A DNA stretch of 50,439 bases from the NCBI GenBank assembly GCA_003279615.1, contig QCHM01000010.1, forward strand, positions 1-50,439, written 5' to 3'. Made by a program: the position numbers and the translations under genes. The notes below the pieces were generated by a model. It searched no databases, had not been told where the DNA came from, and saw only the letters and a program-made list of their open reading frames with translations. This DNA is from Prochlorococcus sp. AG-402-B19 (GTDB lineage Bacteria; Cyanobacteriota; Cyanobacteriia; PCC-6307; Cyanobiaceae). Of this stretch, positions 5,078-6,000 are shown piece by piece (position 1 is the stretch's first letter; each line of letters starts with the position of its first letter).

Positions 5078-5530
5078 CTAAGTAGATATAGCTGTATTAT
5101 CTAAATATGATATTAAAGGGTCATAAAAGTCATGAAATAGACTACCACTAAAAGAAAACAAATAAACGAGACCACTGAAAAAACCTAGAAAAATAAAATA
5201 CCTAACATACCCATTCCTTCTTTGTAACTTAGCAAATGAAAAAAGCATAATTAACAAAAAAACAAAACCGATCAATTCAGAAAAAAACAACGCTGATTTA
5301 TCAACAACTAATTCAAATTTTCTACCAAGAATAAGGTTATTGCCTACAGTATTATTTTTAAATAGTATAAAATTAATTATTTCCGAGAAAGCAAGGCTAA
5401 AAATAAAGATATATGATACAGGCTTTGTTAGCCTATTCATGGTTTTACTAAAACTCAATAAAAGTACTGTTATAAAAACAGATGCAATTATTGGGATTCC
5501 AGGAATCAACCAGGTAAAGTTTAATAACAT
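5078..5530 (-). CDS. Membrane protein resembling only the N-terminus of NdhF/NuoL
   Basis: A 150-residue hydrophobic protein with about four membrane helices. From memory of cyanobacterial NdhF, the similarity is collinear: WLIPGIPIIASVFITVLLLSF followed by NRL, then a loop, then VDKSALFFSELIGFVFLLIML, then GYVRYFIFLGFFSGLVYLFSFS. This corresponds to roughly the first 130 residues of a protein that normally exceeds 600. The coding frame is clean and ends in a stop, so it does not look like a fresh pseudogene. It lacks the antiporter channel helices. It may be a stand-alone accessory subunit or a domesticated remnant. Function is not known. A 37-codon ORF ends 5 bases upstream on the same strand. 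Confidence 0.75.
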   Translation of the reverse strand: MLLNFTWLIPGIPIIASVFITVLLLSFSKTMNRLTKPVSYIFIFSLAFSEIINFILFKNNTVGNNLILGRKFELVVDKSALFFSELIGFVFLLIMLFSFAKLQRRNGYVRYFIFLGFFSGLVYLFSFSGSLFHDFYDPLISYLDNTAIST

Positions 5531-5535
5531 ATTTC

Positions 5536-5649
5536 TTAACCAAGCTTATTTTTATATGCAACTTTAAAATCCTTTATTTGTTCCCGAAAGGCAACATAAA
5601 CTAAAGAAAAGACAATTGAAATAGATGTATTCATTAAATGATAAAACAT
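5536..5649 (-). CDS. Possible 37-residue single-pass membrane peptide
   Basis: This short ORF reads MFYHLMNTSISIVFSLVYVA, then a charged tail rich in lysine (FREQIKDFKVAYKNKLG), then TAA. A hydrophobic N-terminal half followed by a basic tail is the layout of small membrane subunits. Its stop lies five bases before the ATG of the NdhF-like gene, so the two could be translationally coupled. There is no strong ribosome-binding site, and in AT-rich DNA such ORFs can arise by chance. A further 40-codon GTG-started frame with a hydrophobic end lies upstream at 5704-5826 (minus) and is even less certain. Confidence 0.35.
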   Translation of the reverse strand: MFYHLMNTSISIVFSLVYVAFREQIKDFKVAYKNKLG

Positions 5650-6000
5650 AATAATATTTTTTTTAGCAAGGAAACACTCTGAAAACAAGCTATTAATTAA
5701 TAGTCAAACAAAACTTAATAAGAAAATCAATGCAATAATAAAACTATATATAGAGTCTTTCTTTTTTATATATAAGCCATAGAAACAACAAATATATCTT
5801 TTGAGATTTTGTTTAAGTATAAACACTTTTATATTATTATTTTTACTGATTGTTTTTCAATTTCATATTTTCTTCTATACAAAGCTGAAACTTACTCGCT
5901 TGAAAAATCTAAACGAATAGTGAAAAATCGAAAAAAACTTGGAACAAACTAAAAAAAAATAAATAGATTATAATTTCATTATAAATTGTTCTAAGTTCAA
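5650..6000. other. AT-rich intergenic stretch upstream of hli
   Basis: The gap between the NdhF-like unit (minus) and the hli gene (plus) is very AT-rich. It holds a weak 40-codon frame at 5704-5826 on the minus strand and a consensus -10 hexamer near its right end. I see no RNA gene or strong terminator. It probably carries divergent promoters. Confidence 0.5.
5969..5974 (+). promoter_or_regulatory. Candidate -10 element for hli
   Basis: A perfect TATAAT hexamer ends 26 bases before the ATG at 6001. No convincing -35 hexamer is found at the usual 16-18 base spacing, which is common for picocyanobacterial promoters. It implies a very short 5' leader, about 15-20 bases. Confidence 0.45.

Follow-up and report, generated by a model that had tools for sequence, protein, structure and literature searches.

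The window, that is, the whole stretch of 50,439 nucleotides analysed here, comes from a Prochlorococcus genome of 1.55 Mb that is 87.5% complete. It carries a real gene for a stand-alone paralogue of the N-terminal part of NdhF, preceded on the same strand by a small single-pass membrane ORF and by a conserved non-coding block (Table 1). The original prediction had described the 150-codon frame as collinear with only the first part of NdhF, with four helices and no channel region, and our results agree with this description. Indeed, when compared with the PDB, the profile of the short NdhF family matched residues 1-147 of chain F of 6hum (E 5.5e-24), and homology is confined to the start of NdhF, that is, to its first ~145 residues. 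NCBIfam matched residues 3-120 of the short protein to NAD(P)H-quinone oxidoreductase subunit 5 (E 1.9e-10), and Pfam PF00662 gave 16.8 bits, under its cut-off of 24.5 bits. An AlphaFold model made with 27 sequences (mean pLDDT 88.5, pTM 0.81) showed four long helices (residues 8-26, 35-58, 78-100 and 108-126) and a less certain C-terminal one (130-147), and its best PDB matches were chain F of NDH-1L, with TM-scores of 0.71-0.75 over the query. Homology to the N terminus of NdhF/NuoL is hence found by profile, NCBIfam, tree (see below) and structure, in a protein that lacks the full antiporter-like length of at least 600 residues. Elsewhere in the same genome, NdhF1 is encoded by its own intact frame of 671 codons. 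One short copy (P0107) carries the database name NAD(P)H-quinone oxidoreductase NdhF, which masks the short gene as a distinct one. A phage origin of the gene was rejected, PHROGs giving no match, and Rfam at gathering cut-offs returned only two tRNAs across the window.

Table 1. Position of the short ndhF gene, its two conserved loops and the upstream elements in the window
Feature	Position	Strand	Description
Short NdhF paralogue gene	5078-5530	minus	150 codons, ATG start, four predicted transmembrane helices
Helix 3-4 loop, codons 101-112 (QRRNGYVR region)	5195-5230	minus	pN/pS 0.19, 25 loci
Helix 1-2 loop, codons 26-38 (SFSKTMNRLTKPV)	5417-5455	minus	most constrained segment, pN/pS 0.07, 25 loci
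Single-pass membrane ORF	5536-5634	minus	32 codons, with the start placed as in its 37-residue relatives
Conserved non-coding block with palindrome CTATTAATTAATAG	5682-5718	minus	upstream of both frames

Among candidate relatives of 0.55-1.75 times the query length, 972 of 1021 matched the 150-residue protein at E<=0.001, and 109 of the 120 matches listed were exactly 150 residues long; this is more than chance, and the length is conserved in relatives, a check that had been proposed with the original prediction. We then surveyed the 272 genomes of the picocyanobacterial family that are at least 90% complete (34 genera), of which 13 genera carry the short form. These 13 genera comprise 121 genomes (17 from g1, the window's own genus, 87 from g18, 3 from g11 and 14 from ten further genera), and the short gene was detected in 112 of them, a figure that measures its steadiness within the carrying genera and not its spread, since the denominator holds carrying genera only. 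Together with the selection described below, this bears out the idea of a conserved short form. Three of the 112 copies are broken (G255, G316 and G317). In G255, a g1 genome, the copy lies at a contig edge (L053), and its frame is interrupted by a single internal stop but is well conserved elsewhere. Single-contig genomes have the gene in 24 of 26 cases, and the remaining two, G316 and G317, show fragments; both are g18 assemblies in which the fragmented NdhF matches may be due to sequencing error instead of gene decay. All nine genomes without the short gene belong to g18. The neighbouring gene was also not found in eight of them and lies at a contig start in the ninth (G347), a situation better explained by a gap or by loss of the whole stretch than by decay of the lone gene. 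Outside the family, the best matches listed from 146 class-wide genomes included no short stand-alone form; a 265-codon frame was observed in one genome of this set (G485).

The origin of the short form was addressed with a tree of 82 N-terminal sequences, including 34 short copies and only four NdhF3/F4 rows. All 34 short copies fall on one side of a single branch (support 100/99), nearer to NdhF1 than to NdhF3/F4; deep forks among them are unresolved and several branches are long. The tree thus points to one origin of the short form, from NdhF1 and within the picocyanobacterial family, and rules out an origin from the NdhF3/F4 of CO2-uptake complexes. Stop-to-stop frames measure 144-182 codons in most lineages and 296-314 codons in four genera (g30, g44, g15 and g27), and the 34 copies in the tree fall into the same two classes (144-178 and 296-314 codons), to which we refer as the quarter and half forms. 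The quarter form ends before TM5. In the half form, of about 300 codons, the TM5 glutamate of the FWELVG motif, which is present in every NdhF1 row of the alignment, is replaced in six of six sequences, so that the conserved glutamate of the proton channel is missing in both classes. Judged from these sequences, the short NdhF is not a pump. In the half form of g30 both halves are nevertheless constrained (pN/pS 0.18-0.32, three loci). Prochlorococcus, which is among the most streamlined and abundant phototrophs, thus retains an additional fragment of a complex I pump, unable to pump by itself.

The small ORF announced in the original prediction, a membrane frame just upstream on the same strand, does exist: its stop lies five bases before the ATG of the short ndhF, and an alternative ATG at 5649 on the minus strand extends it to 37 codons. 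Its helix lacks five residues in the window. Relatives are present in 22 of 28 g1 loci, by criteria of start and length, mostly ending five bases before the ATG, and in 9 of 26 loci of other genera. The ORF overlaps the ndhF ATG by 1 base in g30 (L056, L057), g53 (L025, L027, L028, L030, L067) and g40 (L065), the relative in L028 having no ATG start, and ends nine bases before it in g28 (L026). It was not seen in 17 of the 26 loci of other genera, which include the three from g18 (L054, L068, L072) as well as L029 (g53), L066 (g40) and L055 (g30), although a partial match remains in the last of these. Conservation of the ORF in relatives was therefore confirmed in part, but the view of a constrained partner fails in g1, where its pN/pS is 1.02 (20 loci), that is, neutral. 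Values were lower in four g1 loci with a GL(R/L)EL core (0.49), and six loci from other genera together gave 0.63, with 0.28 over the first six codons. Dispersed relatives with a single helix followed by a GLREL..E-type segment (L219, L220, L221-L228, L230-L235) occur elsewhere, in other gene contexts, in Prochlorococcus and in some Synechococcus-type genomes, and the ORF is thus one of an unnamed group of single-pass proteins. It gave no match of weight in Pfam, NCBIfam or the PDB. The single helix recalls NdhP and NdhQ, the single-pass subunits of NDH-1L, of which NdhP is given as 5 kDa in the title of PMC4131877, and both of which adjoin NdhD1 according to the corresponding portion of PMC7021789. 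On the other hand, its profile matched none of their PDB chains at E<=10, although a 37-residue profile has little power and this search had no positive control. The microprotein is a real feature of the history of the locus; it was probably one member of an ancestral two-gene unit, and in g1 it is probably a vestige.

Selection on the short gene itself is of a different kind. Over 29 g1 loci (406 pairs), NG86 dN/dS had a median of 0.18 and a 5-95% range of 0.12-0.30, and stayed below 1 in every pair; the median was also 0.18 over 28 loci (378 pairs), which indicates purifying selection. A pseudogene test had been set out with the original prediction, based on dN/dS and on the presence of a full ndhF in relatives. 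The neutral pattern of a pseudogene is absent, and a full ndhF was found at 0 of the 23 loci compared, all of them from Prochlorococcus; selection and the lack of a full ndhF at these loci rule out the decay of a local full-length gene. That the gene is the remnant of a second ndhF in slow decay could be argued from the two size classes, of about 300 and about 150 codons, which suggest shortening, from the neutrality of the upstream microprotein in g1, and from the internal stop in one g1 copy and the fragments in G316 and G317. Yet the dN/dS values, the strong constraint on one loop of the protein (Table 1) and the detection of the gene in nearly all single-contig genomes, in roughly six gene arrangements, speak against it; we deem this explanation very improbable, and the dN/dS largely refutes it.

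We further mapped the constraint along the gene using uncorrected pN/pS over the 25 g1 loci of exactly 150 codons. The whole gene gave 0.27, codons 1-7 gave 0.11, the helices 0.23-0.34 and the stretch between helices 2 and 3 0.44, the helix 1-2 loop having the lowest value. Y108 and V109, in the loop joining helices 3 and 4, are nearly invariant (27 rows). Residues 26-37 of the helix 1-2 loop read SFSKTMNRLTKP in the window, and SFNRTMNRL(T/S)KP or close to it elsewhere. We then compared identity within groups for this 12-residue stretch and for the rest of the N-terminal region. In short copies (n=34), identity was 0.79 in the loop versus 0.32 in the rest. The NdhF1 proteins of genera without the short gene (n=11) showed 0.86 versus 0.82, whereas those of lineages with the short gene (n=33) showed 0.55 versus 0.81; in many genomes, then, the loop that the short copy preserves has drifted in NdhF1. 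Among these 33 sequences are four from g18 genomes where no short gene was found, and their loop has drifted as well, which suggests that it may be dispensable. The drifted loop reads SFNDLFNRSRK(P/Q) in g1 and mostly SINKKINNSREI in g18; in g30, g27 and g58 the NdhF1 loop is intact. A reversal of the g18 pattern was observed in the genus of G026 (L073, L145), where the loop of NdhF1 is perfect and that of a 296-codon half NdhF is degraded (LFPKTVKRLGKP).

Loosening of NdhF1 is not restricted to this loop. In a scan of the whole protein with one sequence per genus (11 versus 15), overall identity was equal (0.82 each), and the window of residues 26-37 ranked fourth among non-overlapping windows for loss of conservation, the largest loss being that of residues 43-54 in helix 2. 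A loss equal to or greater than that of the motif was seen in 27 of 658 windows, and conservation also falls in stretches near the C terminus. Furthermore, loop quality in the short copy and in NdhF1 showed a weak negative correlation within genomes that did not reach significance (Spearman -0.27, p 0.21, 24 genomes), and the same held for genus means (Spearman -0.31, p 0.28, n=14). The reciprocal pattern rests on one clade.

A protein that cannot pump, and in which one loop is far more constrained than the helices, is most simply read as a membrane scaffold offering a face to a partner. We tentatively propose, as a quite possible if unproven role, that the short NdhF is a selected membrane anchor whose helix 1-2 loop, predicted to be cytoplasmic, docks a soluble partner in the place of NdhF1. 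In such a scenario an N-terminal copy of NdhF that has lost the proton-channel part, and that purifying selection maintains, would sit in the membrane as a scaffold, presenting its near-invariant loop to the putative partner; and the docking role would have been handed over from NdhF1, the loop of which would then have drifted. The drift of this loop in the NdhF1 of many of the same genomes suggests such a handover. The sidedness was predicted from the positive-inside rule and from the equivalent loop of NdhF3, which contributes to the CupA site; the loop face of the short protein is most likely cytoplasmic. Counting against the anchor, the loosening of NdhF1 extends beyond the loop, the helices of the short copy are constrained too, the trade-off within genomes lacks significance, NdhF1 has a drifted loop even where the short gene was not found, one g1 copy has an internal stop, and the CupA-type residues are not kept (see below). 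The same drift bears on a different proposal, namely that the short protein acts as an assembly factor or decoy, engaging whatever recognizes nascent NdhF1 and so limiting or timing the assembly of NDH-1L. The short protein does copy the part of NdhF1 that is translated first, but since the conserved loop has drifted in the NdhF1 of many of these genomes, a single binder would no longer see the two proteins as similar, and we regard this proposal as quite unlikely.

The surroundings of the gene bear on its link with NDH-1. No ndhB, ndhD or full ndhF, the three genes to which the search was limited, was found beside it at E<=1e-5 in the 23 loci, so that, unlike an NdhF1 gene, it does not adjoin ndhD; at NdhF1 loci that reach far enough, an NdhD-like frame follows NdhF1. 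The 23 loci show roughly six gene arrangements (11, 3, 3, 3, 2 and 1 loci), some of which share neighbours, and 13 of them have an hli-like gene within 5 kb, an inconstant neighbour that does not sustain the link with hli first suggested. A membrane protein with no remaining link to NDH-1 would fit this isolation, as well as the low identity outside one loop (0.32 across lineages); the best conserved loop is, however, shared with the NdhF1 of genera without the short gene, which makes such a complete separation unlikely. Conversely, the short or half NdhF could be an NDH-1 subunit that caps NdhD, perhaps a second NdhD, at the tip of the membrane arm instead of NdhF1, giving a shorter and less pumping complex. 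It is a paralogue of NdhF1 with the same predicted fold, and its genome has four Proton_antipo_M genes, which we take from reading the frames and from general knowledge to be NdhF1, NdhB and two NdhD. This capping role is made less probable by the helices, the would-be interface with NdhD, being the divergent part of the protein across lineages, and we consider it possible but on the unlikely side. It can be tested: in the part available of PMC2663038, the two ndhD paralogues of MED4 have opposite daily phases (PMM0150 at sunset, PMM0594 at sunrise), which its authors read as two complexes. The short gene would test whether the day and night NDH-1 complexes proposed for MED4 differ beyond NdhD. 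Titles and abstract openings of the literature searched described no short or second NdhF in Prochlorococcus. According to its legend, figure 2 of PMC5607370 gives primary and internal transcription starts under nitrogen deprivation for three genes, among them the ndhF of MED4 (PMM0149), with no apparent relation to the short gene.

Comparison with known systems returns us to the docking role. NdhF1, or subunit 5 of NDH-1L, is the nearest relative in the tree and resembles the short form in the sequence and predicted fold of its first ~145 residues, but differs in that the quarter form lacks TM5 onward and the half forms the TM5 glutamate, in that the short gene occupies a separate locus, and in that its helices have diverged. 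A second comparison is with NdhF3/NdhF4, which work with CupA/CupB (ChpXY). In the excerpt available of PMC6981117, Arg37, Tyr41 and Glu114 of the NdhF3 of NDH-1MS complete the zinc site of CupA. Arg37 and Tyr41 align with the end of the short-form loop, and Glu114 would fall, by residue count, in the helix 3-4 loop. These residues are not kept as a set in short copies, the position of Arg37 being Lys in nearly all and that of Tyr41 being Tyr in some only. The short form also belongs to another clade (with four NdhF3/F4 rows in the tree), and ChpXY occurs in none of the genera that have it. Indeed, ChpXY was found in 178 of 300 family genomes, from 21 genera, and these are the same 21 survey genera in which no short form was seen; it was found in none of the 23 genera in which the short NdhF was seen in any search, and a search of the window's own genome was negative. 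This contrast amounts to one evolutionary event or two, and not to many independent ones. Second NdhF matches in nine genomes of ChpXY-bearing genera are frames of 621-651 codons of the NdhF3/F4 type. A 263-codon frame in G062, which bears ChpXY, matched the short NdhF profile weakly (G062:C1:97988-98428, E 0.009). A broader version of the docking reading, which we find rather doubtful, is that the functions of NdhF have been split in a lineage without NdhF3/F4-CupA docking, the pump remaining in NdhF1 and the cytoplasmic docking loop residing on a quarter-size platform for a soluble factor. The short gene would, in any case, offer a direct test of a part of NdhF that is possibly used for docking and not for pumping.

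Upstream of both frames, the non-coding block is nearly identical by eye in most of the 28 aligned g1 loci, L052 being an exception, and its flanks have drifted. It occurs once per g1 genome (three of three searched), and four genomes from other genera gave no occurrence. Positions 5801-5952 of the plus strand, which lie between the hli-like gene and the short ndhF unit, hold a possible small single-pass frame, the C-terminal end of which resembles, by eye, ORFs of 50-57 residues found at the same place in six other loci.
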